Shown in pieces: positions 25,563 through 62,679 of a stretch of DNA of 64,000 nucleotides (positions are counted from its first letter, which is position 1; the number at the start of each line of letters is the position of its first letter). Origin of the DNA: Pirellulaceae bacterium (GTDB lineage Bacteria > Planctomycetota > Planctomycetia > Pirellulales > Pirellulaceae). The notes below the pieces were generated by a model. The model saw nothing but the letters and a program-made list of their open reading frames with translations. It was not told the DNA's origin and made no database searches. The stretch lies in assembly GCA_020852965.1 (NCBI GenBank), contig JADYZV010000064.1:1-64000 (forward strand), read 5' to 3'. The translations under genes and the position numbers were made by a program.

Positions 25563-28500
25563 ATGAGTGTCCCGATTGGAAATCGCCGACCGAGCTGGCG
25601 GCAAGCAGGAACCCGACCCGTGGCGGCTGCTGGGTCGGTGACGCGGCGACGGTTGCTCGCTTCTGCCCTGTTGATGTGTCTGTTGCTTGGGGCAATTGCG
25701 TTGGTCGCTTTCCTCGCCAACAGACGCTACCAACATACGCGAGTCGCGTCCTTGTTCACCGCTTCTCGATCCCAGACCGGTGAACCCGAACAACCCTACA
25801 CATGGCCGCCATTGCGATTCGGCTCGGAGTCGCTTGCTCCTTTGCTGGCCGAGAAAAAACCACAATTCGAATTAGCATCTCTCACTACACGCTTTGTAGA
25901 CGCAAAGGAATTGCAAGCGGAGATTGAGGGGCAAATCCGAGGACTGGAACGCGACGATGCTTTTATTTTGTGGATCCGAGCTAAGGGAGCTTCGCTAGCA
26001 GATCAGGCCTACTTGTTCAGTGGCGAATACCGTTTGCCTCAGTCTGGAGAACAGCTCTCTAGTCCACAGGGGGCCATCCCATTTAAGACCATCGTCGACG
26101 CGGTCAGCCAATGGCAAGGACCATCGATGATTCTACTGGATTGGGGCAATCAATTGAGCGATCCACGGGCAGGTGTGTGGGACAATCAGTTCCTTGACTT
26201 GGCAATAGCCGAGATCGCTGCCGCGCCTCCACGAGTCCATTGCCTGGTGTCGCACCAGTACGCTGAGCTTTCGCTCGATTCATTGTCAAGTCAACAAACG
26301 CTGTTCGGACGCGCTTGCGCGGAAGCTTTGGTTGGGCCGCGCCGCGCACCCCCCGATTTCTCATCGCAAGTGAGCGACCATCGCCAATTGTTGGTAGGTG
26401 ACCTGGCCGAATATGTGATTCGCAGGGTATGGACAGATTCGGCGGGAACCCAGAAACCGTGGCTTGCGAAAGGTGGAACAGGGTGGCTCGATGTCAAACG
26501 TGATTGGGACTCTCTAACGACGAGCCCACTATTGCAACTGGGGGCAAATCGTCGCCCACTGGGATGGAGTGATTTCGAAGCGGCTGCTCCGCAAGAGGAC
26601 TCCCAGGCGACAGCTTCGGCCGAGGAGCCGCCTCAAGATCCGAGTCCAGCGGTGGTGGAGCTTACCGACGAAAATTGGCCGACTGGAACGCTGTGGCAAA
26701 GTCTCGACCAATGGCGGGCGCCGTCGGATGAACTCGGCGGCTGGTCGCTGGCATCGCTGGCACCGCTAACGGCTCGACGAATGGCTACCAAGATTTTGTA
26801 TCTTGAGCAGCGTTGGATGGCTGGTGACGACTTTCGCAGCGAAGCCAACCTGCTCGATTCGGTCAGTGACTTGCGTAGAGAATTGTCATCCCAAAAAGAT
26901 GATATTGAACGAGCCAGCTATGAAGGCACCGTCTCGAGCGTGTTCAAACCTCTGCCCGCCAATGTTTCCCCTAATGAGATCGCCGATTGGCGGCGACGTA
27001 TCGAAACGGTAGCCGCCTATCGGCAGTTAGCTCTGTCGCTGAGCGATACGATCGCGTTGGCGGATAGTATCTCCATGCGTCAAGACGTCTCGAGAGAACT
27101 GAGTAGAGCCGCCGGTCGTGGCATCGCAGCGGTCGAGTCATTTTTGCACAGCCTGTCCGGGTCGTCGCGAGAACCAATCGATAACCTGCCGATGCTCGAC
27201 ACCGCTCGGCTGGGTAGCGACCTGAAAGTTTGCAAAGAACAAATTGATGTCCAAATCGCTAGCCTGGTCAAGCAGGTAGTAGACAATCCGCTGAAACAGA
27301 AACCGTTGGCAGAATTGCTATCGCGGTATTGCTGGCTGAGTCACGCGCAGCGGAGTGAGCTGTGGCGGTCTATGGTGTCTGCCAAACTGCGGGACGCCAA
27401 TAGCGAGTGGCCTACCAAGAATTTATCCTCGCTGCAGGTCAATCAGCCTCCGGACAGGGAGGTGGTGAGACCTCAAACCCTGGGGTTGGTCAAAGCACTT
27501 TCGTCAGAGTTGTTCGATGGCTCTGTACCGGCGGCTGCAACTGCTCAAGATTTGGTTACTATTCTGGGTAGGGTTGCCGACGCGGTGCGCGATTCCAATC
27601 AGGTCAGTGAGGCTCAGTGGCTGGTCGTTGATGGTCGGGATCTCTGTCAAATAGAAGAGAGTCGTTGGCCGGTAGGCTCGCAGCAACCACCGTTGCCCAG
27701 CGTGCCGCAGCCACTACCAAGTTGGCGAGTGGCTTGGGAAAACGCGGTAGGCGGTCAACTAGATTCGAATCGTCTGCAACTCGATAGCACGAGCGAACCA
27801 GCCAGCCTGGATTTGATGTTGACCCGTATCGGTGCTGCAGTCGACATCGACTCCATTGAAATTCGCTTCCATGGGGTAGAAGGACGCATCGCAGGCAGCG
27901 ACGCACCATGGGGACGAGGTTCACTGCAGCTCGCCCAGTCGGATCTACTGCGGGTTGTCGTTCTGAAAGCCAACGCGCAACGTTTGCCGATTGAAATTAG
28001 GGCGCTGAGCAACGAGCCAAATATTAAGCGGGAACTGCAGGTTCACGTAAACGCTGGCAGCCATTCCCCAGCAGAGCAACATTTAGCTTGTCAACTTCCG
28101 GTGGCTATACCGGTGACGCTCGCAGTTCAACAACGAGTCTGTCGCGAAGGAGAGACGAAATGGGAAAACTGTGTGCAGCACGGGACGCTTTTTACCATGC
28201 AGCCCTTCCCAGGTCGTCGGACAGAATTCCGCTTGCTCGTTTCCAACCAGGACGATCAAGCCAGAACGGCCTCGGTGGAACTATACCGATTGAATTCCAG
28301 GTCGGCGAGCAATGCCAAGGGGCGGATCAGTGTAACGGGTGACGAGGTGCCGATGGAACTGGAGAACCAGGTGCTAGGCAGTTTGACATCGATCGCCCGC
28401 TCGGCTGCGATCGACCTAGGCCCCAATCAGAGTGATGTTGAAGTCGACTTTTCCACTCAGCCCTCACCCCCAGCCGATCCGAACGCAGCCACTTCAGACC

Positions 28501-30080: not shown

Positions 30081-30311
30081 CTCCGTAAAGCTGTGCGTGC
30101 GATTCTGTTAAGCTACACCGACTTTACTGTCTCCCCCCAAATTAGTCTGCTCAGAAAGGCGGCTGATCTTAAATAGTCGGAAGCTTCACCACCGATAAGT
30201 TTTGTGAAGGAATGTTGTCTACCAACGTGCGGCAACTATTCCAAATCCCAAACTGGTGCGAAGGCTCCCGACCCTTGCGCCTAGAGAACTGGTCGCAATG
30301 GAGTGCGGATC

Positions 30312-31613
30312 ATGGTGCAATTAAAAACACAACTAATCGCTGCAGTATTAGCAGTAGCAATTTCCGGCTCGGTATTTGGGCAGGCAGCAGCACCTCCCGT
30401 ACCAGCTCCATCGACTCTCTGGTCCTTCTTGGGGATTCCTCAAGGGGTCAAGAAAGTCCAGGGCGCGCTAACCAACAGGCGCGGGAATCGTCCGGGGACT
30501 GAGCCCAAAGACGCGCTCAAGGCTCTCAATGATCCAGCCAATCTGGAATCGCCCGATGCCGCGATCAAACGCGCTGCGGAGATCAAAAAGGCTGAGGACC
30601 TCAAGCCACAAAAGATTAAGGCAATCAAATACCTGGCTTCGATTGGTTGCGGCTGCTATGACAAAGACGGAAGCGTTACCGACGCCCTGGTGGCTGCCGC
30701 CGAGGATTGCACCGAGGACGTTCGGCTGGCGACCATGCGGCAAATTCACTCAGCCGCAACCGGAAAGTGTTGCTCCAACTGCGGTCAAGTTTGTTGCTGC
30801 AATGACAAGATGCTGAAGAAACTGGCGCAAATCGCGTACGAACGAGATGAGTTCGGGTGCTACGCTGAGCCATCCAAGCGTGTTCGTTGTGCAGCCGCGT
30901 CGGCGCTCGCTGCCTGCTGCCCAGGTTCTGTCCCACTGGAAGTATTGCAAGAAGAACCGAAGGAGCCGAAAGAGACCGCTCCAGAGAAAACTCCCGAGCC
31001 GGTACCCGAACGAGAAAAACCACAAGATGATGTCGTTCCCGAGCGTGAGAAAGATTTGGACGAGCGAGTCTCAGCGGAACATCATCTGGATGACAGGAAC
31101 CTGAAATCCGCTATCGGCTCCGAATTTTCCATGAATCTCCAAGGCAGCAGTGAGCCAGCACGCCTGCCTACATCGACTCCCTTCAATTGGAATCGAGCCC
31201 AAGAGGGGGCCGCGAGCCGCTCGACCACGGATCTTATGGCCGGCCAACGACAGTCAGTGCCTACCGGGATTGCCAGAATGCGAAATATTTTGGCCTCTCA
31301 ACCATCGCACGGCTCGGCCTCGCCAAACCCGCAGGGTGGCGTAGTCCTGGCCTATGATGACAGTAGCAAAACCGCTTACGTCCACTTTGAAGAAGCCACG
31401 GCGACCGTGCCAGTCGGCACGATGCTGCACCTGCGACCCGACCCCAGAATCGCCAGTGGTTTCAATGGTATGTGGCAGGTCGTCGAATCGACCGCAGGCT
31501 GTGCAAATCTACAGCCACTTGGTCCCGACGGAATCGAACGAATTCGTATCGGTGACCACGCGATCTTCGGCACACCTGCCGTTGTCGTCGCTCCCATCTC
31601 GTTCACGCGCTAA
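30312..31613 (+). CDS. Exported Cys-rich HEAT-like protein
   Basis: A 433-residue protein with a signal peptide (about residues 1-22, ending GSVFGQA). Residues about 95-205 contain a helical repeat region unusually rich in Cys (IGCGCYDKDG, GKCCSNCGQVCCCNDK, FGCYAEPSKRVRCAAASALA), a pattern I associate with exported planctomycete proteins. A Pro/Glu/Lys-rich linker follows, then a C-terminal domain (about 355-433; VGTMLHLRPDPRIA). The start at 30312 is preferred to GTG 30303 because GGAG lies 8 bases upstream. The cysteines could bind metal or form disulfides. It lies 231 bp after the giant gene and may be co-transcribed with it. Confidence 0.7.
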   Translation: MVQLKTQLIAAVLAVAISGSVFGQAAAPPVPAPSTLWSFLGIPQGVKKVQGALTNRRGNRPGTEPKDALKALNDPANLESPDAAIKRAAEIKKAEDLKPQKIKAIKYLASIGCGCYDKDGSVTDALVAAAEDCTEDVRLATMRQIHSAATGKCCSNCGQVCCCNDKMLKKLAQIAYERDEFGCYAEPSKRVRCAAASALAACCPGSVPLEVLQEEPKEPKETAPEKTPEPVPEREKPQDDVVPEREKDLDERVSAEHHLDDRNLKSAIGSEFSMNLQGSSEPARLPTSTPFNWNRAQEGAASRSTTDLMAGQRQSVPTGIARMRNILASQPSHGSASPNPQGGVVLAYDDSSKTAYVHFEEATATVPVGTMLHLRPDPRIASGFNGMWQVVESTAGCANLQPLGPDGIERIRIGDHAIFGTPAVVVAPISFTR

Positions 31614-31760
31614 CAGGTGTACAGCTACCGCACCAAAAGCAAAGCACGATGTTCGAAGGAGCGCAGTTGGAAAATACCAAGGCGTGATTTGTCAGAAAGT
31701 TGTAGTTGGTGGGCCATCGAGGATGGCCAACTCGGTCAGTTGCCATACCCAACGATGACC

Positions 31761-34001
31761 TCAGAAATCGCTGGACTGCAATATAGATTGCAGCTCGAGT
31801 CGGCCCACCAGTGCCCATCGCTCTCCAGCACCTACCTCCAGTAGGAACGCATCGAATGGCGCGAAGAACGGCTCCACTTGGCTGCTATCTTGGCCTGTCA
31901 AAAAGTCTGCCAGGGCAGTTGGAGTAAGCAATGCAAGCAGCGGTTGACGCCCGTCGCTCGGCTGTCGCAAAGTTCGCAAGCTGAGTAGCCCATCCTCGAG
32001 TTCGGCGTGCGATAGGACTAGCCACGCACTGCCGCTTCCCCAGTTGCCGAGAAAGGGAAGCATCCACGAGGCATCGTCAGCCTGCGAGGGATTGAGCCAT
32101 TCTCGCGGCGAACCGCCTAGCCCTTGACTAGCAGCCTCGATCCAGTTCTCTATCTCGCTACCATTGAGCACCCATCCCGACTTGGCGCGAAGCAAGCTCA
32201 AGCAGACGTCGACTGGTTGCAACGTAGCAGCTTCACCAAGGTAGACAAATAGCCCGCTACGACAGGCGATCGCTTTGAGCTCTGCTGCTTGTTTTGCATA
32301 TAGAGCCTTGTCGTCCAAGTCGATGGGGCGACTCGCTAAAATGACCTCGCTCGGTGCGTGTGGCGATCGCTGTTCTTTCGCCTGCGCCTGCAATTCAGGT
32401 GCGTTAGCATCAGGCGAAACCGATGGCCTAGCATCGGGCTCGTTGGGGCTGCGTTCAGAGTCCAACCCATTCAGGTCCTCGTCTGTACAAGGTGCCGTTG
32501 CGGTGCTTTCGTTAGCGTCGCCATCTACGGAACCAACTTCAACCGTACCGTTCTCATCTGTTTCGCTGTCATCTGTTTCGCTGTCAACTGTGTCGTTCTC
32601 TGCTGTTCCCGACTCTGCTGTTCCCGACCCTGCTCTGGCGTAGAGGTCGTCCGTTGGCGGTGGCGAGACGGGTGGCGGAACCTGCGCTGCCCCAAGAAGT
32701 TCGACATCACTGGCTAGGGCCTGCGAGGGATCGTCTGCATGAGAGTTATTACTGTAGTAGGGGAGATCGGTAGCTAACGCAGCCGATGGTTCTTCCTGCA
32801 ACGTTGGTATCGCACGACTGGGCCCCTTCCCGACAGTCGGCGGCAAGCATACCACAAACTCGGTTTTACCCACGCGCAATCGATCACCGTGATCGAGCTC
32901 GGCCGTAGTGACCCGTTTGCCTCCCACGAACGTCCCATTGGAGCTCCCCAGATCGCGCAATTGAAGGGCGTTTCCATCAAACAGAATGGTCGCGTGTTGT
33001 GTCGAGACTTCAAGATCCGTTGCTACCGAAATTTGCGACTCCAGGCTACGTCCCAGCGATACGAGTTGGTTGGGTGCCAGGTCAAACTCCTGGCCATCGG
33101 ACAGGCGGCGCAGAGAGGCATGCGATATCTGATCGTTGCCTGGCTCGTCAGCTCGCCGCGCTGCTTGGTCTACCCCTGGTGTGCGAACCGGGCGCGCGAC
33201 GATTTCGTCAAGCTCCGCCACAGGGGGCCGCACATTGGCAAGGTCGGCGCCCCCAGCAGGCAGTGGAGCTGGCTGTTCAGGCGTGCTCTTGCTTAGGGCC
33301 ACTTTGAAACGAGTTTGTCCTCCACGAATTTCATCGCCAGAAAAAAGCTGAACTTCGCTCACTCGCGCTCCATTGACGAACGTGCCGTTGCTGCTATCGA
33401 GATCCGTAACCTTCCAAATGCCAGATTGCTGCGACAGTTCCATGTGGCAGCTCGACATCTGTTCGTCGTGGCCAAAGACCCATTGAGAGGAAGTCGTGCG
33501 CCCGATGGTTATTCTCTGCGAACCTACCAGTCTGCGGCTCGAGTTATCGTCGGCTGTTAACAGCAGTTCCGAAGCGAAGTCCCCTGGCTCAGATAAATTG
33601 TTCGCGGGCCAGGCGGAGGGTGTTGCGGGAGGCAGAACCTTGGATGGCATTTCCATCGGCGACAAGCTGCGGGCGGCTGTTGCCCCGTTCGAGTCCATTT
33701 CGACTGGGCGAACCACCAGGTGCCATCGCGACCCGCCTGCTTGAACTTCGTCTCCTTCGACCACGATCGCCGTACTAACGCGCTTCGTATTCAGGAACAG
33801 GCCATTGCTGCTCCCAAGGTCCCGAATGCGACAACCTCCCGAATCCGCACCGATCGCGAAATGAACGCTCGACATTTGCAAATCGTGAGGAAACGAAAAC
33901 TCATTGACTGCTTCGCGACCAACGTTAACAGAACGGTCAGCGGGAACCTGAATTTCACTCGTTCCCGCCGAGATGGGTGCAAGAATGTAGATCGGCTGCA
34001 T
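31761..34001 (-). CDS. Triple-FHA protein with a C-terminal DUF4123-like (T6SS effector adaptor) domain
   Basis: A 746-residue cytoplasmic protein. Three FHA domains, which bind phosphothreonine, lie at about residues 5-97, 145-236 and 297-386; each has the GR...S..H...SSNG signature (SSNGLF, SSNGTF, SSNGTF). A low-complexity acidic linker rich in Thr, Glu, Asp and Ser follows (about 450-490). The last 170 residues (LFVYLGEAA; WMLPFLGNWGSGSAWLVLSH; LLSLRTL; LALLTPTALADFL; PFFAPFDAFLLEV) match the pattern of DUF4123, the adaptor that loads effectors onto VgrG. FHA proteins (ImpI/Fha) belong to many T6SS loci. The FHA domains are certain; the DUF4123 call is by eye. Confidence 0.8.
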   Translation of the reverse strand: MQPIYILAPISAGTSEIQVPADRSVNVGREAVNEFSFPHDLQMSSVHFAIGADSGGCRIRDLGSSNGLFLNTKRVSTAIVVEGDEVQAGGSRWHLVVRPVEMDSNGATAARSLSPMEMPSKVLPPATPSAWPANNLSEPGDFASELLLTADDNSSRRLVGSQRITIGRTTSSQWVFGHDEQMSSCHMELSQQSGIWKVTDLDSSNGTFVNGARVSEVQLFSGDEIRGGQTRFKVALSKSTPEQPAPLPAGGADLANVRPPVAELDEIVARPVRTPGVDQAARRADEPGNDQISHASLRRLSDGQEFDLAPNQLVSLGRSLESQISVATDLEVSTQHATILFDGNALQLRDLGSSNGTFVGGKRVTTAELDHGDRLRVGKTEFVVCLPPTVGKGPSRAIPTLQEEPSAALATDLPYYSNNSHADDPSQALASDVELLGAAQVPPPVSPPPTDDLYARAGSGTAESGTAENDTVDSETDDSETDENGTVEVGSVDGDANESTATAPCTDEDLNGLDSERSPNEPDARPSVSPDANAPELQAQAKEQRSPHAPSEVILASRPIDLDDKALYAKQAAELKAIACRSGLFVYLGEAATLQPVDVCLSLLRAKSGWVLNGSEIENWIEAASQGLGGSPREWLNPSQADDASWMLPFLGNWGSGSAWLVLSHAELEDGLLSLRTLRQPSDGRQPLLALLTPTALADFLTGQDSSQVEPFFAPFDAFLLEVGAGERWALVGRLELQSILQSSDF

Positions 34002-34086
34002 TAATTTCGGTTTCGGCTTGAAAACGCAAGTTGATGTGCGGGCTCTATTCGTGTGGGCAACGGCATTGGGAGTGCGTTCTACAATT

Positions 34087-34100: not shown

Positions 34101-34249
34101 TAGTAGATAGATCAATCCGTAGAGCATGTGGCCCGACGCTAGGCCGTCCTATTCGCATTCCTCAAAACCACCTACCGATGTTAGCCGGCCGTGTGTCGGC
34201 TACAATATGAGCAGATCATCGGTTTGTGGAACTCAGCGGAGAAACGAGT

Positions 34250-37200
34250 ATGAGCGATGGGCGAGGTGTCGAGCCTACGAAAGGCGAAAAGCACTCCTGG
34301 AAGAAGAAGGCACGACCCCCGTCCGCCGCCAGCGGAGGTAAGTATTGGGCCACTGGAGGCGCTAGCAAGCCGATTGTTTCGCGTAGCCTCGTTCGGCTGC
34401 TTGCAGCGCTCGCGGTGCTTTTGACGACGACCGCCGCTCTCGTATTGTACCTTTGGAATCAAAACAGCTCGACTCCATTCATCTCTATCGCGGCGATCGA
34501 TTACGAGCATCCCTGGGCACCCAACGCGTGGGCCAAAGAGGACCAGCAACGCTTTCAATCGCTGGCCCAGAGCAGTCAATTTAAGGTGGTAGTGAAACAG
34601 GAGAAAAAGGATGGCACGTGGCAGGAGTTGATCCGTTCCGAGCTCGAAAAAATTACCCCCGGCGGACCTGGGGGAAGCCTGCTTCCGTTTCTATTTGGCT
34701 ATCGCTCGGCCATCGTCCATCTTTCCGCTCATGGCGTTCTCAATCATGACAGCAAGCCTTGTTTGCTGTTCGCCGACGCAGATCCACTCGATGACGCAAC
34801 TTGGGTTCCTCTAGCAGAAGTGCTCAATGCAATCGGCGAGGCGATTGGCGAGCCTACAGTCGGCGCGCATGAGATCGACACCAACCACCGAGCTCGAGTG
34901 TTGGTCATTCTGGATACTGGCAAACAACCACCAGATTTTCGCTGTGGCTTGCTGAGTTCGGGGTTCATCGATGCCGCCCGCGACGAGATCAAATCGCTCA
35001 AGTTTAAGAATTTTGCGGTCTTATTATCGTGCGACGAAGAGCAATGCGCTTGGACAGCACCGGAAATCAATGGGACCGTGTTTGGCTATATGGTAGCGAC
35101 GGGACTGCATGGAATGGCGGATGAGCGATCTGGCAGTGGCGATGGCAATACGCGAGTCACCGTCCAAGAACTCGCCGACTTTGTCACTGCATCCGTGGAT
35201 GGCTACGTTCGGGAGCATCGCGGTCGCGTTCAGCAACCGAACTTGGTCTGGTGTGGTGAGGAGCAAGATGGTGACTTCGATCTTTGTTTTAAATCGAGTT
35301 ACACTTCTTCGGAAGTCTCCACCGAGCAGAAAAAATCACGGATGGCGAATATAAAGAGATTGTCTATCGCTTGGACGGAATTTGGCGAGTGGAACCAACG
35401 CGCCCCCAGCTATGACAGTTGGCAACGTGCCAAGGCGTTGGCCCGTCTGACTCGTGCCGAACAACTATTGTGGGCTGGGTCTGCCTACCAAACGCAATTC
35501 ACGCACGAGATTGACTTGGCTGAAAGAGTCTTTTCGGGACCCGCCAATAGCGCCTGGCCCGATGCGATCTGTGGCAGCTCATTGGTGTTTCTCCATCGTG
35601 TACACGGTCGCGATCCGATCGCCGAACGCAGTGTGTTAGGGTTGTCTCTGGTATCCGAGTCCCAACAAGGTCCGTCCATCACCAACCCAGCGGCCGCGCC
35701 AGGCCCAGCAGCAGCGACTGCTTCGCCCGACACTGATATAAAGAGCGATAACAGCGATGAGGCCGATGGCAAGCCAGCGTCGGACGCGGTATCGCCACCG
35801 CCGACACCTGCACAACAGATCATTGGTTGGTTGACTTTCAATGGGCAAGCCAAGGAAGGGCAACCGCCGCCGGAGCGTCCCGGACTTCCTCGGCGCTCGA
35901 CTGCTGTGGGGTTTGTGTATGCTTGGTTGTCGGACAATTCGCAGTTCGTCAATGCGACTGTATTGAACCGGTTCCTAGATTGGATTGGGCCCATCCCAGA
36001 TCCCAAGAGCGTCACTCGTGAAGAAGCACTGTTGCGAACCATCCAGGAACATCTGCAGCTTACCAGCGGCTGGGAACTGCAGGCGGAAAAGGAACTCGGG
36101 CCATTGTGGAGTCAATACCTTCAAGCAGCAGATGCTTGCGAATCAGCCATCGCCACAGCCGAGCCTCGCGCGACTCAGTGCTTGGAACGCCACGCGGCGC
36201 AGTTGTTGATTGATCTACAGGTTGTTCGTGATCGTATCCACGGTTGCCAAACGGATCGCGATGCCTCGGACTGCGCCATCGATTTGGATGATTTGCAAGC
36301 GACCGCGCAAAAGACACGCGATATCCGCGAGCGTCTTGAACGCGCCTGGCGGCTGCGCGATGAGTTGGCCATGGAGCTGCCGACGCTGGCGCAATGGATC
36401 GCGTCGCCCATCGCTCGCCTTCAAAAAAAGTTGCCTTCCTCCTCAGACGCGTGGAGATTGTCGCAACAGCTCATCCAAGAGTTGGCTGCTATCCAAGTTC
36501 AATTGGCCGCAGGGCACGTCCCCGAGACAACGCAATTGGAGGCCGTGGAACAGCAATTGGAGAATCTGGTCGGCGCCTATTCTGATTCTGTGTACTATGT
36601 GACTGACCGCGACGCCAAAGGTCAGCGGAAGTCGGTCGGTAATCTCATGCTGAGCCTAGGCCTTCGACCCAATATTTATCCAGGTCTTGGGCTGAGTGCT
36701 CGCGGTAAACTGCATGAAGGGTTAGAGAATCGCTACGTCGACTTGCAGAAGATAGTCGGCCAAAAGAAAGTGCCAGACTATAGCACGAGCGAGCTTACCG
36801 AAGGAGTCGATCGTCAGCCTGTCTGGCAGCCAAGCGACCTGCCGGACGACTTGAGCACCTCCTTTGCCCCTCTCGCATTCACGGAAATCGCGGTTGGGCG
36901 AAAACTTTCAAGTCCTCAAGACACCGCAAAGTCTGCGCGCGGCAAGCTGGCCGCAGTGGGAGCAGAATTGCGGGACTTGTGGAAAGCTCGTCCAAACCAG
37001 TTGGCCGAAAACAGCCGTTCAGCCCTCGAAGCGATGAGTAGCTTGGAAAGGTCAAGTATTGCAGAAGCCGAAGCGAAGCTGCAGTCTGCAGAATACCACG
37101 CGCAATTGCTCACGCATTTGGTGCCCGTCAGTGGCTTCGACGATTTCGACGATACTGCGCCGGCGAAGATAGCCAACTCGGTTTGCACTGAGCAGTATGC

Positions 37201-40807: not shown

Positions 40808-41447
40808 GTTAATTCCCTCCTTGGAATTATGTTGAACTTATGGCGCTTATGCCGTTCGCCAACCTCGTCGCCGCAAACAAGACAATCGAAGACAATGGAC
40901 GAGAACAGTTTCAAGCCACTGTTTATTTCATATCGCACACGGCAATGCAAAATATTTCTCTAAAGTTAGATAGAAACGCACCTGCGTGTTATCGAGCGAA
41001 ATACACTTGACGCAATCAGCTTGAATTGCCCACGTTTGGAAATTGTAATAAACTGCCCATTCTAACTGTGGGCGGAAATGCGGTGGGACAGATTCAACGT
41101 ACCAACCGGCCCACAAAATTGCGTCGAGTAGGCGGGGCGTAGTGGATGGCCGCTCGCGGCGAAGCGGATTGAGGCAAATTGGGTCTAGCCGGCCGTACCT
41201 GTCTCCACTGTGTATCGAACTGGGGCTGCGTGCCATATAATGGCCGAGCCGATAATGATTATGATTGCCGCTCGTTACATTCGGATGATACACAAGTTTG
41301 AGCAATTACAAACTTATGCACGTTTTCAAGATTCGGTTGAGTGCAAAATGTACTTGCTGACGCGGCGGGTAATGAATAGCGGGTTATGAATAATCTGGGT
41401 TCAATCCACAGCCGCAATTCGCGTTGCTACCAACAAGACTGACGTTT
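40808..41447. other. Gap of 640 bp without a convincing gene
   Basis: This divergent gap lies between the barrel gene and the kinase gene. A minus-strand frame at 40928-41305 has no family features, no ribosome-binding site and odd composition, so I do not call it. TATAAT at 41236-41241 and the string GCCGATAA at 41248-41255 (the -10 of FliA-type promoters) occur about 200 bp before the kinase start, but neither has a matching -35. Confidence 0.5.
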
Positions 41448-51546: not shown

Positions 51547-51575
51547 GCGCTAGGTAGCCAGTGTAGTAATAGCAA

Positions 51576-51668: not shown

Positions 51669-51868
51669 TTTTGTCCCATTCAATTGGCAATAGCGGCACA
51701 GATTCACGCAGACTCGGCTTTCCACTGCGAAACAGCAGTATTTTTATCTGGCCGTTCACAAGTTGTTTTTGAGCGGCTGCCGATGTTAAGAGTGTTATAG
51801 GTCGGTCAATTTGTCCGCTTGCACAAGTAATCGCGTCACGGAAGACGCTGAACAATGGGGTCTTGGCT

Positions 51869-52624
51869 ATGAAACGCATGGATGCAGTCAATTATCATTT
51901 TGGCAAACTAATCCTTGGCTTCCTTGGGGCGCTCGTACTGCCCGTTATGTTGCAAGCCGAGGGGCTCTTTCACCGCTGCGAACACTGCGGCAAATCTTGC
52001 CAACCGCATACGTTGGTGGAGAAGACGATCATGTGTCCGGTGCAGGTCATCGAGACACGTGTTAAGCCGTGCTTGGTGGAAAAGTGCGAGGAACGCGAAG
52101 AGAAATACACCGTGTTCAAGTGCGTGCCTGACAAGCGTACCATCAAAAAAGAGTGCTGCTACCTCTTGGACGAAGTCAAGTCGAAAGAGATCGTCGACAA
52201 GAAATGCCAATTGGTCGACATAGAAGTCTCGCGCACCAAAAACGTGCTCATTCCAGCCTACGAAATGGTGGAGACCTGCGTCCAAAAGGAAGTCTGTACC
52301 GAATGCGGCCCGATCTGTGTCGAAGAACGTTGCCTGCAAGAAAAAGCCCGCATGGCAGCAGGCACTTGCGAAGAGAAAGATACAGACAAGCAGCTCGTCT
52401 TCCTGGAAACCAAGAAAGACTTCTTCTACTGCGTCAAGACGCCGAAAAAACACACGATCGAATGCGCCAAAGAGACGTTCTACAAACTGGAACCTGTCGA
52501 AAAGACACGCAAAGTCCAGGTGATGGTTCCAAAAATCGAATACGTCCCCTACGAAGTGGAAGTCACCAAAATGCTTCCTAAGAAAATCTTGTGCTGCGTC
52601 CCTTGCGGAAAACAAGTGCGTTAG
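51869..52624 (+). CDS. Exported Cys-rich protein of the planctomycete YTV wall-protein type
   Basis: A 251-residue protein with a signal peptide (about residues 1-31; LGFLGALVLPVMLQAEG). It has over 20 cysteines and many Lys and Glu, in a repeating pattern of strands: KYTVFKCVPDKRTIKKECC includes the YTV motif (80-82), and CPVQVIETRVKPC and VQVMVPKIEYVPYEVEV follow the same rhythm. YTV-containing Cys-rich proteins have been described as cell-wall candidates in Rhodopirellula baltica. Disulfide-linked envelope structure is therefore likely. The start ATG 51869 is preferred to TTG 51863. A long open frame exists on the opposite strand over most of this gene, but it has no family features. Confidence 0.78.
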   Translation: MKRMDAVNYHFGKLILGFLGALVLPVMLQAEGLFHRCEHCGKSCQPHTLVEKTIMCPVQVIETRVKPCLVEKCEEREEKYTVFKCVPDKRTIKKECCYLLDEVKSKEIVDKKCQLVDIEVSRTKNVLIPAYEMVETCVQKEVCTECGPICVEERCLQEKARMAAGTCEEKDTDKQLVFLETKKDFFYCVKTPKKHTIECAKETFYKLEPVEKTRKVQVMVPKIEYVPYEVEVTKMLPKKILCCVPCGKQVR

Positions 52625-54483: not shown

Positions 54484-54613
54484 AGCAGTTGACTTCGTGC
54501 TTGAGCTCGGTGTGGCGGGAAAGTTCGTTTGCCTTATATTAACAGTCTCATTGTATCATTTTCATCCGTGCTCCGGCTTTGCCGTCCGTGCGAGATTCGA
54601 GGTATTTGGCATG

Positions 54614-56833
54614 CTATAGCATTTCAATGACTACACGAAAGCCAACCGCTGGACTATGCTCGCCGTAAAGTAGCGACGCAGGAGCGTCGTCATCTCCTTC
54701 TGCATAGGCCCACGGAACAGCACTATGGTAACTGTTCCCACGCAAGATAACACGGTCGGTGTCCAGCGGCTGAGCGAGAGGAACCGTGAGCTTTGAGCCG
54801 AGCAGATTGCGGGTCAGTTCGGAAACGTTGCCTGCCATGTCGAAGATGCCAAACGGGCTCGTGTCATCGCTCGACGATCCACCTGGGCAGGGGCCTGACT
54901 CCAGCCGCGCGACACAGACTTGCTCACCGTCGCCCAAGTAGGGACCCACTCGCTCCTCGCGTTCCAGGGCACCCGCCGCCTTGTCCCACTGACTGGTGCT
55001 GGGAAGTAGTCCTCCAAGCCACTGAGCGAATCGGTGCGCCTCGTCGGCGGTAACCTGCACCACGGGATAGTCTGAATATTTTTCATCGACTCCCAATGGA
55101 TTTGTTCCTGCCAGGGCACCTAGTTGCCAAGCCGAATTGAGATTGAACTCAGCGCCTTGTTGGTTGGCAAATTCCGCAAACCAGCCGTTGGTCACCTCGC
55201 GGGTCATCAAATAAAAGGTAGGTGGATCAGCGAGTCGCGCTCGCGGGATCAGCGTGAATTCGATTCGTTGACCACTGGGAAGTGGAATGTCAATTCTCTT
55301 GTAATAGATTCGATCGTCAACTTCAATGCGTTCGTGCTCGCTCGCCGCTAGCACTGCGCGCTCAGGGATTTTCAAGGTGCTTGGATCGACGATATCGATG
55401 GTCAGTTCCTTTTCCAACTCGCCGCTCGAAGTTGCTACCAATAACTTGACGGAACTCGAGCTCACGGGCGCATTGACGTCGGCGTGGAACTGGACGGCTT
55501 GCTCTGCGCTCGTATATTCCACCGATAGCCCTTCGACCGGATCCGTCAGTTTCACACTTTGGATCGTGTCATTGGAATTTTCCAACGAGACCGCTTGTGT
55601 CGTAAAACGCTTTCCGTATTCAACGATGATCCTTTCTGGAAAGTCGATACGCGGAGCAGGAGGCGCTGGCCACAGCGACCAGGCTACCAAGCCTACAACA
55701 ACTGCCATCAACATGGGTAGCAAAAAAAGCCAAAGTCGAGCCGAAGTGCTGGAGGTCTGGATTCCGGCTGCGGTGGAAGCGGGCGACGTGGCTGACTGCA
55801 GTGCTTGTACCATCTCCGTGCAGGAGGTAAAGCGTCGATCCGGGCGCTTGGCCAGAGCGTGGAGCAACACCGTCTGTTCGGCGTCTGGCAAGCCAATCAA
55901 ATTGGGCTGGCCATGCAAGTGCTCCTTCATAATCGTCACGATGCTGCTCGATTCGAACGGCGGGCGGCCCAATCGTAGCTCAATATAGGTCATAGCCAAA
56001 CTGTATTGATCGCTGGCCGCAACTGGCTTCCCTTCCCAGACTTCCGGTGCCATGTACAAGGGGGAGCCAGCGACTTGTGTTGCTACCAGGTTCAAGCCAC
56101 TCTCATCTAAAAAACGTGCCAAACCGAAATCGGCGACCTTGATATGTCCCTTGAGCAGGAGCAAATTCTCAGGCTTGATATCCCGGTGTATCACGTGTTC
56201 GCGGTGTAGGAAATCGATCCCTTCTGCGGCTTCGGACATGTGCCGTAGCAGTTCGGCCAGTGGAATTCCTTGTTCGCCAAATTCGGACGCTCTGTCTCGT
56301 AGACTTTGGTCGGCAAGTTCCATGGCGATGGTGATCTGTTCCTCGCTCACCCAGAATGCTTGCACCTGCATTAAGAACGGATGACGTAGACGCTTCATCA
56401 GGTCTAAGGATCGCAATTCGATCTGCCTGACGCGACGTCCACTTGGAATCGCAACCAGCTTTAACGCCACTTCGACTCCGCCCGGTGCCTCGCTGAGCCA
56501 TACTTCACCAAAGTTGCCGCGGCCAATCTGACGTATCATCACATAACCGCTCTCCAGGTTCTTGACCTGCTGTGACTCGATACCGATGACCGTCCCCCAC
56601 AGGTCGCTGGGTGGTTCCACGCGATCGGTGCCCCGTTGCGGTTCGGCCGTCGGTGTGACCGGTGGGGGGATCGTCGAGTGCGACGGAGTTTCGCTCGCGT
56701 CCTCAGCGGGGGGCTTGCCATCGGGTGTCGCCATGGTGCCGCGCGCGGGTCGATCCGCTGGAGGGAGTGAGGATCGAGCTGGGTCGGAAGACGATGGGCT
56801 ATTGGAATCCGGCGTTGAATTCTGAGATGTCAA
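54614..56833 (-). CDS. Membrane Ser/Thr protein kinase fused to a sulfatase-modifying-factor (FGE-like) domain
   Basis: A 739-residue protein. A Pro/Ser-rich N-terminus is followed by a kinase domain (about residues 98-360): GRGNFGEVW, Lys125, HRDIKPEN (Asp218), DFG 235-237 and MAPEVWE. A membrane segment lies near 377-399, then a linker, then an FGE-like domain (about 520-739: YLMTREVTNGWFAEF, VQVTADEAHRFAQWL, FGIFDMAGNVSELTR, ILRGNSYHS, VGFRVVIEML). The FGE catalytic cysteines are missing after RGNSY, so this is a binding domain, not a formylglycine enzyme. The start TTG 56833 has GGAGG 7 bases upstream; GTG 56863 is the alternative. It lies 130 bp before the sulfatase gene on the same strand. 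Confidence 0.88.
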   Translation of the reverse strand: MTSQNSTPDSNSPSSSDPARSSLPPADRPARGTMATPDGKPPAEDASETPSHSTIPPPVTPTAEPQRGTDRVEPPSDLWGTVIGIESQQVKNLESGYVMIRQIGRGNFGEVWLSEAPGGVEVALKLVAIPSGRRVRQIELRSLDLMKRLRHPFLMQVQAFWVSEEQITIAMELADQSLRDRASEFGEQGIPLAELLRHMSEAAEGIDFLHREHVIHRDIKPENLLLLKGHIKVADFGLARFLDESGLNLVATQVAGSPLYMAPEVWEGKPVAASDQYSLAMTYIELRLGRPPFESSSIVTIMKEHLHGQPNLIGLPDAEQTVLLHALAKRPDRRFTSCTEMVQALQSATSPASTAAGIQTSSTSARLWLFLLPMLMAVVVGLVAWSLWPAPPAPRIDFPERIIVEYGKRFTTQAVSLENSNDTIQSVKLTDPVEGLSVEYTSAEQAVQFHADVNAPVSSSSVKLLVATSSGELEKELTIDIVDPSTLKIPERAVLAASEHERIEVDDRIYYKRIDIPLPSGQRIEFTLIPRARLADPPTFYLMTREVTNGWFAEFANQQGAEFNLNSAWQLGALAGTNPLGVDEKYSDYPVVQVTADEAHRFAQWLGGLLPSTSQWDKAAGALEREERVGPYLGDGEQVCVARLESGPCPGGSSSDDTSPFGIFDMAGNVSELTRNLLGSKLTVPLAQPLDTDRVILRGNSYHSAVPWAYAEGDDDAPASLLYGEHSPAVGFRVVIEML

Positions 56834-57261
56834 ACGGAAACCCTCCACGCCACAAAAGCCCACAACTGTCGCTCATATTCTATATTCTAGTCGCTTGCGG
56901 CTTGCCGCGACAGAAGCCCGTTGGATAGCGGGGCTGGCGGTGGCACAGCACGGCTAAAACCGACACCTCTCCGCATCGGTTACAATATAAGCGCGACGGT
57001 GCAATGTGGAGCTACGGCGAATGGTTTGCGAGCTGTGCGCCATTGCAAGAGGATCGTGTTCCCGACCCGACCAGCGACGACGAGTGAGAGTTTCGTTGGA
57101 TTATTCTGACGTAGTGTTCAGCGAGTCGTGTTAGTTTTTCTGCAATTTTTCCGGAATTCTAGCGACGATTCAAAGGTTTTTACAGAACAAAGTAAACAGG
57201 CACTCGCCACATCGATCGTTGTGTGAGTTGTTTTGCGAGTCACTTGGCCAAGGGACAATTC
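56834..57261. other. Divergent intergenic region of 428 bp
   Basis: No gene is seen. It contains the 14-mer CAATATAAGCGCGA at 56983-56996, shared with 34087-34100, and an A/T-rich stretch at 57128-57195 that could hold the promoter of the 57262 gene. Confidence 0.5.
56983..56996 (+). promoter_or_regulatory. Shared upstream 14-mer (CAATATAAGCGCGA), copy 2
   Basis: Identical to 34087-34100 and in the same orientation towards a gene for a caspase-like protein without catalytic Cys. It lies 266 bp before the start of the 57262 gene. The preceding bases also agree in part (TTACAATATAAG against TTCAATATAAG). Confidence 0.3.
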
Positions 57262-60200
57262 ATGTTGGGGCAGATGCCAGTGCGTGGTTTTTCGATATTC
57301 AGTTTTGTATTTGCCATCGGTTTGGCTGCCAGCGCCCAATGGCTCATCCCGCCTGAGGCCCTAGCACAGCAGGCTCCTGAACCCGTGCTACGGATCGATA
57401 CCGGAGGGCATTCGAGTTATGTCACTTCACTAGTCTGGAATCGTGACGGTGACGAGTTACTGAGTGCCGGATGGGACAAACTGGTGCGAGTCTGGCGGGC
57501 ATCGGATGCCGGTTCGTTCGTCAATCTTCCGCAACGATCGCTACGATTGCCCATCGGTCCAGGGCCCAGCGGTAAGTTCGATGCGCTGGCGCTCTCCAAC
57601 TCGGGAAGATGGTTGGCCATTGGAGGCTATGCGAGCTTGGCCGCTCGCGCCGCTTCCTTTCGAGACAACGGAATCGAATTGCCCTTGAGCGACGTGGAAT
57701 TGCTCGAACAAGGTATGATATACGTCTTTGATCGTGAGCAGAAAAAGCTACGACGACTCGAGGGACATCGCGGACCGGTTCGCCAATTGCTATTTGCCAC
57801 CAGTCGTGATGGCATGGAGCAGTTGGTGTCGGCTGGCTTCGATCGTAGTGCCGATCAGAAGCCTGTAGGTAGTTTACGCACATGGGATGTCGTTCAAGGA
57901 CGACAGCTCGCAGGGGTGTTGCTGCCTGAGTTGCCCACGCATCGACCGACCTTGGCAGCCTTCCCCAGTACATCGACAGCGGGTGGCTTACACGTGCTGG
58001 CGGCCATGGGGTCTGGGAAAATGTATCAGTGGGAAACGTCGCAGCCTCCCCAACTGCGCACCTATAGCGATGGAATCTTCAACAGCATTCTAGCAGCACC
58101 GGCCGGGCAACCTTGGATTTTAACCGCCAGCGCCGACAATCAGACCAACGCCGGGCAGGTCCAATTGTGGAAGGTTGATAACGCTGGCCTCCCCGTTCGC
58201 GAGAGTCGACGCCGAGTTCAATTTGCTCGGCAGGGCAATGAGATCTACCTCCCGTTGAGCATGGCGCTTTTGTCAAGTCGCCCTCAGGCTACCGCCGATC
58301 GAATCGCCGTCGCGCTCTGTGTCCTACAACTAAATGCCGGCGGAAATCCTCGGCCACAGCGCTTCGAACTGCGGGTCGTGACGCTGCCTGACGCCGCAGG
58401 CAATTCACGCGAAGTATTAAGACAGCCATTGTGGAAGATCGAGTCTGACGAGATCCGTGTGCCAGCCATGTCGGCCAGCCCTACGGGGAAATACTTAGCG
58501 CTGGCGGGCAAGCCCAATCATGAAATAGAAATCTTTCAAGTGGATCAACTCTTGCGAGGTCAAGCCCAACCCGACCGCTTGAAGGGGAACGCTCTAACGG
58601 TATCGCAAGTCGAGTTCGTCGAGCGGCAGGGGGAAATTGGCCTGCGTCTTCACGAAGCAGGTGATTCTGATGTAGGTGCCAATAACCAAACTGTATTCAG
58701 CTTTAGCGAAAACACCATCGAGCGCTCAGAGGGCACTACGTGGGCGGTTCATGCTCCCGATATCCAAGGCTGGACTGCCACGCGATCTAAGACGAACGCC
58801 AATGAGGTTGAACTACGACAGGCCGGCATGTTGCAACGTACGGTCCAAATTCCTGAGCAACATGTCCTGTCGACGTACACATTGACAGGTCCAATGGATG
58901 CAAGCCATGCTCCCTTATTGATTCTGGCTGCACACTTCGAGGGACAACCTTGGCTGGGAGTAGTGGACGCCAGCGATGGACGCACTAAGCGAGTGCTCAC
59001 CGCTCACACGGAACCGATTGGCAGTCTTGCTGTCTCGGCAGATTCGCAGTTGTTGGCCACAACGAGCTCCGATCAAACAATCGCGGTATGGGATCTTTCG
59101 GATGTCGATGCGCTATTGAAACCGCGAGCCACCCTGGGAGGCGTCGCCTTGCTTACCAAGGGTGAAGTCGTGGAGGTGAATGCGACGCAAGTGGCAGCCG
59201 ACGAAACGGCGGATATCAAGCCCGGAGACCAATTGCTGGGATTCCTCGACCCAAATCAGCGCGACGCATTGCAAACCTGGAAGTCGGTGGAAGAAGTGAA
59301 TTTAACTCTGTGGGAGCGTGCAGCAGGTTCGCGAATCACCATTCGCCGCCGCCGAGGCAATATGGATTCGGATGTGGTCGTCACGCTCCAGCAAGCGGTG
59401 GATGAACGCAAACCCTTGTTCCAAGTGATGATCGCAAGTGGTGCTAATAAGACCGACAGGAGTTGGATTGGCTGGAGCCCACTTGGGCCCTTTGACGCAA
59501 GTGACCGCGAAATCAAGCAGCGCTTGGGTTGGCATTTTAATGTTCCACGCCCCCAAACTCCGATCGGATTTGCACCGCTCGACCAATACCCTGATCTCTA
59601 TCAACCGGGACTGTTGAATCGATTGATCAGCCAAGTTGGCAAGGCCGTGACCGTCGTGCCGCTGGTATATATCGAACCACGTATGAGCCTAGCCGTTACC
59701 GCATCGCAGGATGAACATTGGAACGCGGAAGGGACTTCCATCCTTCGCGAAGCACCGCAAGCTGTGACCGTACGAATCACCAATGAAGAATTCTCCCACG
59801 AGCTAGTGCAGTCGATGCAGTTACAGATCAACGGAAAACCATCTGGTTCGTTCGAGAGATCGGAGCCCAACCGTTGGCAAATCGACTCGGTGGTTGCCGC
59901 AGGTTGGACGCGCGGCCCTCAACTGTTGCGTGCCGAACTGGCCACCATTTCCAACCCATCGCGGACGATCGTTATTGAAAAGCCCGTAGCCTACATACCA
60001 CCCGCTCCAAACATTGCACTTGTCAACCCACTTCCCAACGAAACGAAAGCGTCACACCTAAGTATTGCCGCGAAGATCGAGGCAGGAAATCCATCAGAGG
60101 GTTACGAGCTCAGCGTGGTTCGTTTGGCAGAGAATGGGCAGCGCGAAATACTAAATTCTTGGACGGCTGAACCCAACGATCCGCCACTGGCGATCGATTT

Positions 60201-62679
60201 CCCAGTTGAATTGCACGAGGGGAGCAATCGTTTCGAACTGGTCGCACGCAATGCTGGAGCCACCGCCATAACCGAAGCGGATGAAACGGCCAGCATATCG
60301 TTGGAAACCTTTCGCCAGCTTCGCGACAATGGCCCACCCACAATTCGCATTGTCTCGGTCGAGAATTCAGACGCGAATTCACTTGGAAAGTCTTTGGTTT
60401 TGTTGAACTCCCAGGCAGACGCTCCGTGGCTTAGCGAGTCTGACGAGGTTTTGGTCCGTGGAAACATCCAAGCAGTTGAAAAGCTGACACAAGCAACGGG
60501 TCAAGGTGAGTCTCTAACCGGATTTGTTTCCGACAGCAGCAATCGGTTTGAGTTTAGCTGGCCGCTAAAACTGCTACCTGGGCTCAATCGTTTTCGATTC
60601 GCCGCCAAAACCGAAACAAGTTCTCTGGCAACCACCGAGTTGGAAGTACTGTTTCGCGAACCACTGCCCGAGGTCGATCTGGCGTCTCCTGCGCCGGATC
60701 AAGTGATAGCCGACAACCTTGCCGAATCGATGCTCGCGATGCGAGCCGTATTTCAGGCCGACCCCAACCGCCGCCCAATCCAGGTGGTCGCCGTAGTCAA
60801 CGGTCGTCGGCTCGGCCAACCCTTGAGTGTGGATATGGGCCGAGGGTGGATTGAAGGCAAGCTCCCTCTGTCGCTCGGTGCCAACCGTCTGCAGTTTGAA
60901 TTGAGCAATGACACGGGCGCGGAAAGGCTTACTCGTCCGTTCACGATTCACTATCAGCCTCAGCCGATCGTCGAACAACGCCAAATACCTACCGAAATCG
61001 ATCAGCCTGTATTCGATGTTCGCTTGAGCGGTACATCCATCGTACCGTTGAAGCGTATTCTCTTCGACAATCGCGAATTACCTAACGAGGCTTGGCAGAG
61101 CGAACAGGATGGGAATGGATTTCGCTTACACATTCGGGAGCTCGCTTGGCAAGCCGATCAGCGGAAAGCGGTCCTGACCATCTTTGCGGATGGCGTGGAT
61201 CAACCGATCTTCGAGACGATCGATGTGCCGGTTCTGAAACGCCCGACTGCGCCTCCGCAGCTTGTGTTCTTAAGTCCTGTCGACAATGGTTCGGTCTCCA
61301 CGGAATCGGTATCGATCGAATATTTGGTGTCTTCACCGACCGAACTGTCGCGGGTCGAATTAAACCAGGATGGTCAACGCGTGAAGCTGCCCCCGGTCGA
61401 GCCGTCTCAATCCGGTGAACCGTCCAAACTTCGTCAGCGCGTTGAAGTTCATTTGCAACCTGGGCTCAATACGTTTCAGTTGATGGCCGAGAATACTGAC
61501 GGTCTGAGGGCGCGCAGCCTGACTATGAACTTCGTTCCCAGTCCTGTGGCGTTGCGCTTGCACGATTTGTCCAATGCAGCCGATCCGACCACAAAATATT
61601 CATTGCATCAAGCTGACGATGGAATGTGGCGACTCGACGCACCGTTGGATGTCGCGCGGTGCCTGCTCAGTGGCAGTGTCCGCTGGAGTTATGCCGATGA
61701 GGATTCGCTGAACAATCCCAAATTGAAAGTTTGGGTGGCGGTCAATGGATTCAAGCAACCTGTGGACCTACAACCGGTTGGCTCCAAACCTCTGGAGCGA
61801 GAGTTCACTTGCCCGATTCAACTGTTTCGAGCGAGTGGGAATTCGATAGATGTTTCTGCGCCCGATCTACCGGAATTGGCATCGAGCGTGGCGCGGGCCG
61901 AAGTGGACTGTGCATCACCCGAATTGATGCGGCAGCGGCTTCATTTGGCCATCATAGGTGTGGGAGTCGATCGCTCGCAGGAGCAGCAGTTGATGGAAGA
62001 GGCCATCGCATCGCTGTCCGGTAGTCGACTGCAACATAGCGCTAAGCGCAAGGAATTTTCCTTTCAATCTCCCGCCTTCAGCGAGTGCATTGGCTACGGT
62101 CCGTATACTGGGGCAGTTGTCAGCCGCGAGAAAATCGGTTCGTTGCTGGAAATGATACGCCTACGGATTCAGCAAGCCAGATCGCGAGAGTCGGCCAACG
62201 ACGTGATGATGCTGTACTACCGCGGGGGCGAGCAAGTCAATAACGGAGGACAATTCTATCTAACCACGCAGCAGACGCAGTCCGCGCGACAGGGAGAGAT
62301 CATCCGCGATCCGTTACAGTTGAAGTACTTCGCCGTCAGCAGTGACTCCCTCTCCTATTTTGTCGATCGTTGCCCTGGCACGCAGCTTTTGCTACTGGAT
62401 GTTGCGCGGGCTGTGGCTCCGCAAGAGACGCTCAGCCACCAGCCTGATTTCATTCCCGGGGCGGCAACTTTTCGCTACGCTTGGCTCACAGGAGTAAAGG
62501 TACCAGAGAGCGCTCGGCTCATCACGGCTTGGCAGTCCAGCCCCAAGCCATTGCAGTTGGATCAGGTGCAACGAATACTCTCGCTACGATTTGATGCGTT
62601 GTCAAAGCAGTACCAGAATTCGGTGAGCTACGAAAACCATCTGCCCGCACCACTTCGCGATCTTGTGATCAGCCGCTAG
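57262..62679 (+). CDS. Giant exported WD40 / PDZ-like / beta-domain protein with a dead caspase-like C-terminus
   Basis: An 1805-residue protein. The start at 57262 has AAGGGA 6 bases upstream. A signal peptide covers about residues 1-36 (PPEALAQQA). WD40 repeats start near 48 (SYVTSLVWNRDGDELLSAGW) and recur near 578-613 (SLAVSADSQLLATTSSDQTI). A PDZ-like stretch follows (about 620-715; DIKPGDQLLGF). About 840-1500 is a run of beta-sandwich-like segments, several opening with I..VNPLPNE or V.L.SPAPDQ motifs. The last 250 residues follow the caspase plan, but the His-Gly reads YYRGGE (Arg1654) and D-x-C reads DVA (Asp1713, Ala1715). It resembles the active 46502 protein in plan and is probably a non-cleaving relative. 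Confidence 0.78.
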   Translation: MLGQMPVRGFSIFSFVFAIGLAASAQWLIPPEALAQQAPEPVLRIDTGGHSSYVTSLVWNRDGDELLSAGWDKLVRVWRASDAGSFVNLPQRSLRLPIGPGPSGKFDALALSNSGRWLAIGGYASLAARAASFRDNGIELPLSDVELLEQGMIYVFDREQKKLRRLEGHRGPVRQLLFATSRDGMEQLVSAGFDRSADQKPVGSLRTWDVVQGRQLAGVLLPELPTHRPTLAAFPSTSTAGGLHVLAAMGSGKMYQWETSQPPQLRTYSDGIFNSILAAPAGQPWILTASADNQTNAGQVQLWKVDNAGLPVRESRRRVQFARQGNEIYLPLSMALLSSRPQATADRIAVALCVLQLNAGGNPRPQRFELRVVTLPDAAGNSREVLRQPLWKIESDEIRVPAMSASPTGKYLALAGKPNHEIEIFQVDQLLRGQAQPDRLKGNALTVSQVEFVERQGEIGLRLHEAGDSDVGANNQTVFSFSENTIERSEGTTWAVHAPDIQGWTATRSKTNANEVELRQAGMLQRTVQIPEQHVLSTYTLTGPMDASHAPLLILAAHFEGQPWLGVVDASDGRTKRVLTAHTEPIGSLAVSADSQLLATTSSDQTIAVWDLSDVDALLKPRATLGGVALLTKGEVVEVNATQVAADETADIKPGDQLLGFLDPNQRDALQTWKSVEEVNLTLWERAAGSRITIRRRRGNMDSDVVVTLQQAVDERKPLFQVMIASGANKTDRSWIGWSPLGPFDASDREIKQRLGWHFNVPRPQTPIGFAPLDQYPDLYQPGLLNRLISQVGKAVTVVPLVYIEPRMSLAVTASQDEHWNAEGTSILREAPQAVTVRITNEEFSHELVQSMQLQINGKPSGSFERSEPNRWQIDSVVAAGWTRGPQLLRAELATISNPSRTIVIEKPVAYIPPAPNIALVNPLPNETKASHLSIAAKIEAGNPSEGYELSVVRLAENGQREILNSWTAEPNDPPLAIDFPVELHEGSNRFELVARNAGATAITEADETASISLETFRQLRDNGPPTIRIVSVENSDANSLGKSLVLLNSQADAPWLSESDEVLVRGNIQAVEKLTQATGQGESLTGFVSDSSNRFEFSWPLKLLPGLNRFRFAAKTETSSLATTELEVLFREPLPEVDLASPAPDQVIADNLAESMLAMRAVFQADPNRRPIQVVAVVNGRRLGQPLSVDMGRGWIEGKLPLSLGANRLQFELSNDTGAERLTRPFTIHYQPQPIVEQRQIPTEIDQPVFDVRLSGTSIVPLKRILFDNRELPNEAWQSEQDGNGFRLHIRELAWQADQRKAVLTIFADGVDQPIFETIDVPVLKRPTAPPQLVFLSPVDNGSVSTESVSIEYLVSSPTELSRVELNQDGQRVKLPPVEPSQSGEPSKLRQRVEVHLQPGLNTFQLMAENTDGLRARSLTMNFVPSPVALRLHDLSNAADPTTKYSLHQADDGMWRLDAPLDVARCLLSGSVRWSYADEDSLNNPKLKVWVAVNGFKQPVDLQPVGSKPLEREFTCPIQLFRASGNSIDVSAPDLPELASSVARAEVDCASPELMRQRLHLAIIGVGVDRSQEQQLMEEAIASLSGSRLQHSAKRKEFSFQSPAFSECIGYGPYTGAVVSREKIGSLLEMIRLRIQQARSRESANDVMMLYYRGGEQVNNGGQFYLTTQQTQSARQGEIIRDPLQLKYFAVSSDSLSYFVDRCPGTQLLLLDVARAVAPQETLSHQPDFIPGAATFRYAWLTGVKVPESARLITAWQSSPKPLQLDQVQRILSLRFDALSKQYQNSVSYENHLPAPLRDLVISR

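Follow-up and report, generated by a model that had tools for sequence, protein, structure and literature searches.

Paired membrane-anchored giants with caspase-like domains accompany T6SS genes in Pirellulales and are candidate parts of the secretion machine

Introduction

Within 37 kb of a planctomycete contig lie genes for four caspase-like proteins, of which a single one keeps the His-Cys dyad of an active C14 peptidase, and it may be asked why three catalytically dead ones should be kept in its neighborhood. The first-pass annotation had proposed that the dead three are kept as partners that bind or regulate the active protein. The same stretch of DNA also carries genes of a type VI secretion system (T6SS), and for the question of how a T6SS crosses the envelope without TssJ and a full TssM, a conserved protein pair restricted to T6SS provides direct candidates. 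Our window, i.e., the whole stretch of DNA analyzed, comprises the 64,000 nt at the start of contig JADYZV010000064.1 of a Pirellulaceae bacterium, whose own genome of 8.37 Mb is labeled G000.

Results and Discussion

Layout of the window

Domain matches define a T6SS cluster on the minus strand, which also includes a sigma factor gene. Past the cluster, the four caspase-like proteins, named P0001 to P0004, are encoded on the plus strand, interspersed with genes for FHA, kinase, vWA, sulfatase, and trypsin-PDZ proteins. The features referred to below are as follows.

5036-23290, minus strand: T6SS cluster
5036-18156, minus strand: remaining T6SS genes (Hcp, ClpV, TssG, TssF, TssE, ImpE, two TssC, TssB, TssA)
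19423-21072, minus strand: short TssM of 549 aa, which stops after the last hydrophobic stretch and is without the periplasmic domain
21125-21853, minus strand: TssL (DotU)
21866-23290, minus strand: TssK (baseplate), divergent from P0001 at a distance of 2.3 kb
25563-30080, plus strand: P0001, A-type giant of 1505 aa
25686-26468, plus strand: dead caspase-like domain of P0001, residues 42-302 (AKG for GHG, DWG for D-x-C)
30303-31613, plus strand: HEATcys, a cysteine-containing protein with a signal-peptide-like start, kept between A and B giants
31761-34001, minus strand: protein with three FHA domains
34226-39340, plus strand: P0002, B-type giant of 1704 aa
34415-35251, plus strand: dead caspase-like domain of P0002, residues 64-342 (SAHG with the His kept, DTG for DTC)
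41424-43928, plus strand: Ser/Thr kinase with WD40-like C terminus
46415-50356, plus strand: P0003, WD40 and active-type C14 caspase domain (49526-50245; SGHG/DTCHSG)
54614-56863, minus strand: Ser/Thr kinase with FGE-sulfatase domain; in the two other P0004 genomes a related gene likewise adjoins P0004
57223-62679, plus strand: P0004, WD40 repeats and a C-terminal dead caspase-like domain (about 61912-62433; RGG/DVA)

The HEAT match that gave HEATcys its name is weak (E 0.07), and NCBIfam was uninformative. All four open reading frames (ORFs) and their motifs lie where they had first been placed, and only the start positions were slightly off, being now set at 34226 (GTG) instead of 34250, at 46415 instead of 46502, and at 57223 (GTG) instead of 57262. 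The motif coordinates are 25974-25994 (AKG) and 26133-26153 (DWG) in P0001, 34721-34741 (SAHG) and 34907-34927 (DTG) in P0002, 49787-49807 (SGHG) and 49946-49966 (DTCHSG) in P0003, and 62215-62235 (RGG) and 62392-62412 (DVA) in P0004. The cysteine is thus lost in three of the proteins, as had been noticed, and the His-Cys dyad of an active C14 peptidase is absent from P0001, P0002, and P0004. P0003 has the dyad and is a predicted active peptidase; both residues are kept in 18 of 18 aligned domains.

Three further observations concern the surroundings. The two TssC (VipB) genes stand in tandem (12899-14548 and 14692-16197), and each matches both sheath domains. At 51863-52624, after the trypsin-PDZ gene, a cysteine-rich protein of 253 aa with a hydrophobic start is encoded that has no Pfam match. 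The ORF at 23369-24796 begins with several repeats of the unit LGAWCLV, which suggests a DNA repeat at its 5′ end; the true start is probably located further in.

Relationship of the dead domains to caspases

When single sequences were searched against Pfam at E ≤ 1, the C14 family was reported for none of the four proteins, P0003 included (for P0004, among the best 25 of 28 families), and no caspase was found when the A- and B-family profiles were run against PDB sequences. As the dead domains are not visible in such searches, profile comparison was required. Alignments of 25 A-family and 32 B-family rows, from which P0003 and two other WD40 caspases had been left out, were compared by hhalign with an 18-domain C14 profile. 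The match reached 99.8% (E 8e-28, score 187) for the P0001 family, 99.7% (E 3e-25, score 172) for the P0002 family, and 94.3% (E 1e-7, score 58) for P0004, the last with three sequences only; the A and B families matched each other at 100%. With 60 column-shuffled C14 profiles the scores did not exceed 18.5, 22.6, and 28.9 for P0001, P0002, and P0004, respectively, and reversed profiles gave 11.6, 18.2, and 24.0. Two iterative profiles, one started from the N-terminal domain of P0001 and one from that of P0002, arrived at a common set of ORFs (71 of the 107 with at least 900 aa), among them P0003 with its C14 domain and the two other WD40 caspases.

Structure prediction and superposition, which had been suggested as a check, were run on the domains of P0001 and P0002. 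AlphaFold2 models from 17-row alignments had a mean pLDDT of 64.6 and a pTM of 0.71 for P0001, a model that is only partly confident, and of 76.7 and 0.81 for P0002. In Foldseek, the best PDB matches of both models were caspases (E 2e-7 and 6e-10, respectively), with TM-scores by query length that were moderate among the best 50 rows of each, namely 0.35 to 0.49 for P0001 and 0.47 to 0.55 for P0002. The best 50 rows for P0002 consisted of caspases and MALT1, with caspase-9 at the top, and those for P0001 comprised MALT1 (top match), caspases, a metacaspase, Geobacter GSU0716, and one mTORC1 chain, presumably Raptor. These models support a caspase fold (C14-like) for P0001 and P0002, with moderate model confidence for P0001, and the profile comparison makes P0004 a candidate for the same fold. 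The view that the dead proteins are caspase-like is thus supported, by predicted structure for two of them and by profile for all three.

P0001 and P0002 form a paired family

As judged by their sequences, P0001 and P0002 are paralogues of types A and B, and the four proteins of the window do not form one set. The two types are homologous over about 635 columns, running from a membrane helix through the pseudocaspase into a middle region. P0001 and P0002 each have one N-terminal membrane helix, the dead caspase domain, and then more than 1,100 further residues, so that their first description as membrane-anchored giants agrees with the prediction. In P0001 the helix (residues about 31-49) and the dead domain are followed by a helical middle and a CarboxypepD_reg-like C terminus; in P0002 they are followed by the middle region and a vWA domain with a DxSxS motif. 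CarboxypepD_reg was matched in 6/6 A giants, the match in P0001 itself being below the Pfam cut-off, and vWA in 10/10 B giants. Membrane topology was estimated by crude hydropathy and a charge rule: 73 of 81 large ORFs have an early helix, and in 60 of the 73 the positive charge is higher before the helix (P0003 is among these).

On the tree, most A rows separate from B rows, with weak deep forks and P0001 on a long branch. Relatives with organism names obtained with the B-family query come from Rhodopirellula, Stieleria, strain TBK1r, and Pirellulaceae or Planctomycetaceae MAGs. The genes for A, HEATcys, and B are consecutive in 5 of the 10 named loci. HEATcys lies directly 5′ of B in four more of them and 5 kb away in one (L183), and no A domain was found in the stretches read of these five remaining loci. 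In one T6SS subtype A adjoins B, with no HEATcys in between.

The giants co-occur with TssK

Among 146 genomes of the order, TssK was found in 44. Single-sequence matches of P0002 were obtained in 37 genomes, all of them TssK-positive (Fisher 6e-28), matches of P0001 in 9, likewise all TssK-positive, and matches of at least 176 bits to the B profile in 41, again without exception TssK-positive. Giant matches of at least 100 bits occurred in 42 of the 44 TssK-positive and in none of the 102 TssK-negative genomes. This line was chosen once the scores were known; below about 99 bits, A giants are mixed with caspases of other architecture, some of them in TssK-negative or IcmF_C-positive genomes. 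As a check of the line, long sub-threshold ORFs of five TssK-negative genomes were inspected, and none is of the giant type. The 1734-aa protein of G234 has intact SGHG and DACHSG motifs, and the dyad is likewise intact in the 1187-aa protein of G009; in G002, G047, and G122 the caspase-like domain lies in the middle of the protein or towards the C terminus. No dyad motif was seen in the large proteins of G002 (L212) and G122 (L215), which means that dead caspases of other architecture occur without T6SS.

The two TssK-positive genomes of the order without a giant of at least 100 bits are G120, where no giant was found, and G140, where a local profile detected divergent giant ORFs. In a phylum sample of 265 genomes, TssK was present in 58 and giants of at least 100 bits in 5, all TssK-positive. 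Four TssK-positive genomes of this sample belong to the class but not to the order; G232 and G250 have giants, and G281 and G337 gave none at E 1e-15. TssK-positive genomes without a giant are accordingly G120, G281, G337, and genomes outside the class, and co-occurrence with TssK is near-strict. Gene place follows the same pattern: a non-B giant match and the TssK match are divergent and 387 to 2324 bases apart in 16 of the order's 44 TssK-positive genomes; 9 of the 16 are A rows of the tree, and for the rest the A type is assigned from place and score. In locus L196 of G250, two giants flank a short TssM on one strand. As a family, the A and B giants are hence associated with T6SS, occurring only together with it and often close to its genes.

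Canonical membrane-complex parts are missing from the same genomes

TssJ (PF12790) was over the cut-off in 0 of the 146 genomes, with one weak match in the TssK-negative genome G138. IcmF_C (PF06744) was matched in none of the order's 44 TssK-positive genomes and in 1 of the 146 overall, the TssK-negative G019. As controls, both searches matched E. coli, and IcmF_C also matched Lactococcus below the cut-off. TssM of these T6SSs ends after the last membrane stretch: in 19 aligned rows it measures 470 to 672 aa, with one further ORF of 762 aa, and the 19 rows align only with columns 11 to 460 of a 1521-column profile made from 7 long TssMs. These long TssMs, from 7 genomes outside the class, have 1363 to 1534 aa, and no giant was found in the stretches read. 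In the TssK-positive genomes of the phylum sample, IcmF_C was matched in 20/58, overlap with giants of at least 100 bits was zero, and 33/58 had neither PF06744 nor a giant. PF06744 misses 6 of the 7 long-TssM genomes, and its one match in the remaining genome is weak and lies on a different contig, so that the lack of overlap is weak evidence alone and cannot carry exclusivity. That the giants might be a periplasmic domain split off from TssM was not supported, there being no homology to the periplasmic part of TssM, and any replacement would therefore be functional only.

We consider it somewhat more probable than its opposite that P0001 and P0002 are paralogous single-pass inner-membrane giants, with a caspase domain that is now structural, and are dedicated candidate parts of a planctomycete T6SS. 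Most likely they would act as trans-envelope scaffolds that replace TssJ and the periplasmic domain of TssM. The TssK-positive genomes G120, G281, and G337, in which no giant was found, speak against this reading, as do three B giants that keep both His and Cys. In such an arrangement the N terminus would be cytoplasmic and one helix would lead to the pseudocaspase, which would sit on the outer side of the inner membrane and serve assembly there. The middle region and the vWA or C-terminal parts would reach outward and contact further-out parts or the tail. The A/B pair, the short TssM, and TssL would together form a trans-envelope complex with a passage for the tail, the periplasmic parts of the giants standing in for TssJ and the periplasmic domain of TssM. 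The wider proposal that in Pirellulales and some others of the class TssM shed its periplasmic domain and a giant pseudocaspase pair builds the periplasmic passage is put forward tentatively, its chances being slightly below even.

Signaling, partnership, or cleavage as possible other roles

Less probable by a clear distance, yet the best of the alternatives, is a role of the giants as periplasmic T6SS sensors, whose vWA and pseudocaspase domains would read envelope stress or contact and signal to FHA proteins and Ser/Thr kinases. T6SS signaling of a comparable kind is carried out by TagQRST and PpkA in Pseudomonas. FHA and kinase genes do adjoin the giants in the window and in locus L196 of G250, where one strand carries VgrG, FHA, giant, short TssM, giant, and kinase-FGE, some of the ORFs overlapping, and the DxSxS motif of the vWA domain is kept in 10/10 aligned B giants. 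However, a sensor would leave the absence of TssJ and of the TssM periplasmic domain in the same genomes unexplained, and the presence of giants in nearly all TssK-positive genomes of the order is as for a core part.

That the dead caspases are partners of P0003, as initially proposed, appears unlikely. The proteins share 37 kb and a fold, and proteins similar to P0003 (E<1e-40; up to four candidates scored per genome, so that some may be missed) were found in 18 of the 146 genomes, 13 of which are TssK-positive, an enrichment with p 1e-4. The gene follows directly after the B giant in L119 and lies about 10 kb from it in L120. In ten other TssK-positive genomes, however, it is located on another contig or more than 1 megabase away; 5 of the 18 genomes have neither TssK nor a giant of 100 bits, and 29 of the 42 giant-bearing genomes are without a P0003-like protein at E<1e-40. 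P0003-like proteins are thus enriched with T6SS and not strictly linked to it, whereas P0001 and P0002 follow T6SS, and the claim of three dead proteins kept as a set for P0003 is at best weakly favored. For P0004, full-length relatives were found in G129 and G004 only (146 genomes, three candidates scored each). All three P0004 genomes are TssK-positive, which is too few to tie P0004 to T6SS or to separate them. In 3/3 genomes (window 54614-62679, L157, and L158) P0004 is accompanied by a kinase-FGE gene and an outer-membrane-type gene, and His and Cys at the aligned places are kept in 0/3.

Slightly less likely still is that the domains of the giants continue to cleave, by the dyad or another nucleophile depending on the lineage, and process T6SS parts. 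Among 85 complete giant domains, all different, His and Cys are both kept in 3, which are B giants of one genus with DSC and may be able to cleave, as judged by these residues; 56 have the His only, 3 the Cys only, and 23 neither. On a quick tree computed with the catalytic columns left out, a minimum of 3 changes is needed for the Cys and of 11 for the His. Against cleavage, the Cys is absent in 79/85 and is replaced by Gly, Asn, Thr, Ala, His, Gln, or Ser, with no common substitute. The full dyad is absent in 82/85, so that its loss, for which a check in orthologues had been suggested, is shared by them. As the domain is kept while the dyad varies freely, a structural or binding role is indicated. 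Chance clustering of unrelated large genes beside the T6SS is very improbable, for although large proteins and WD40 proteins abound in these genomes and P0003 and P0004 could be such neighbors, it is contradicted by the co-occurrence over 146 genomes and the conserved A-HEATcys-B order.

Relation to known systems

If P0001 and P0002 are indeed dedicated T6SS scaffolds, one of their closest analogues would be the canonical TssJ-TssL-TssM complex. Both have TssL and the portion of TssM that lies in the cytoplasm and the membrane, whereas here TssJ and the periplasmic domain of TssM were not found and giants are present instead. The fold of P0001 and P0002 is shared with MALT1 and other caspases, which are eukaryotic and intracellular, and a dead caspase-like scaffold is known in Raptor. 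A published precedent for replacement is TssNQOPR of Bacteroidota, described in the parts of PMC10781749 available to us as a phylum-specific, non-homologous substitute for the canonical membrane complex; the giants were compared with it by Pfam scans only. According to the same parts, TssJ, TssL, and TssM are all missing in Bacteroidota, whereas here it is TssJ and the periplasmic part of TssM, and neither "caspase" nor "planctomycet" occurs in the text of PMC10781749. Bacterial metacaspases and C14 peptidases, dyad-negative ones included, share the fold of the giants; in the portion of PMC3501461 available, the Cys-His dyad is given as intact in 84% of bacterial and 64% of Planctomycetes cases, and the dead metacaspases are not tied to T6SS. 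Unlike these, the giants are paired, membrane-anchored, and equipped with vWA or other C-terminal domains. In a literature search by titles and abstract starts, which covered few subscription papers or preprints, no report of caspase-like T6SS parts or of a planctomycete T6SS membrane complex was found. A scaffold role would add a further trans-envelope solution to TssJLM and TssNQOPR and would build the caspase fold into a contractile injection machine, a bacterial case of this fold being retained for structure and not for cleavage; the 85 domains are enough to trace on a tree how the catalytic pair was lost.

Some loci showed further features. ORFs of 2000 aa in G281 and G337 were considered as giants and rejected as kinase-like. 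In the stretches read of these genomes (L192 and L194, respectively), TssK and TssL are present and a giant or recognized TssM is absent; in L192, efflux and HlyD-type genes adjoin TssK and TssL. A fused VipA-VipB (TssB and TssC) protein is encoded beside the giants in Rhodopirellula sp. JC639 (L186, 18323-19990), and TssC-like ORFs of about 511 aa, known as TssC matches only, occur in L185, L187, and L190.
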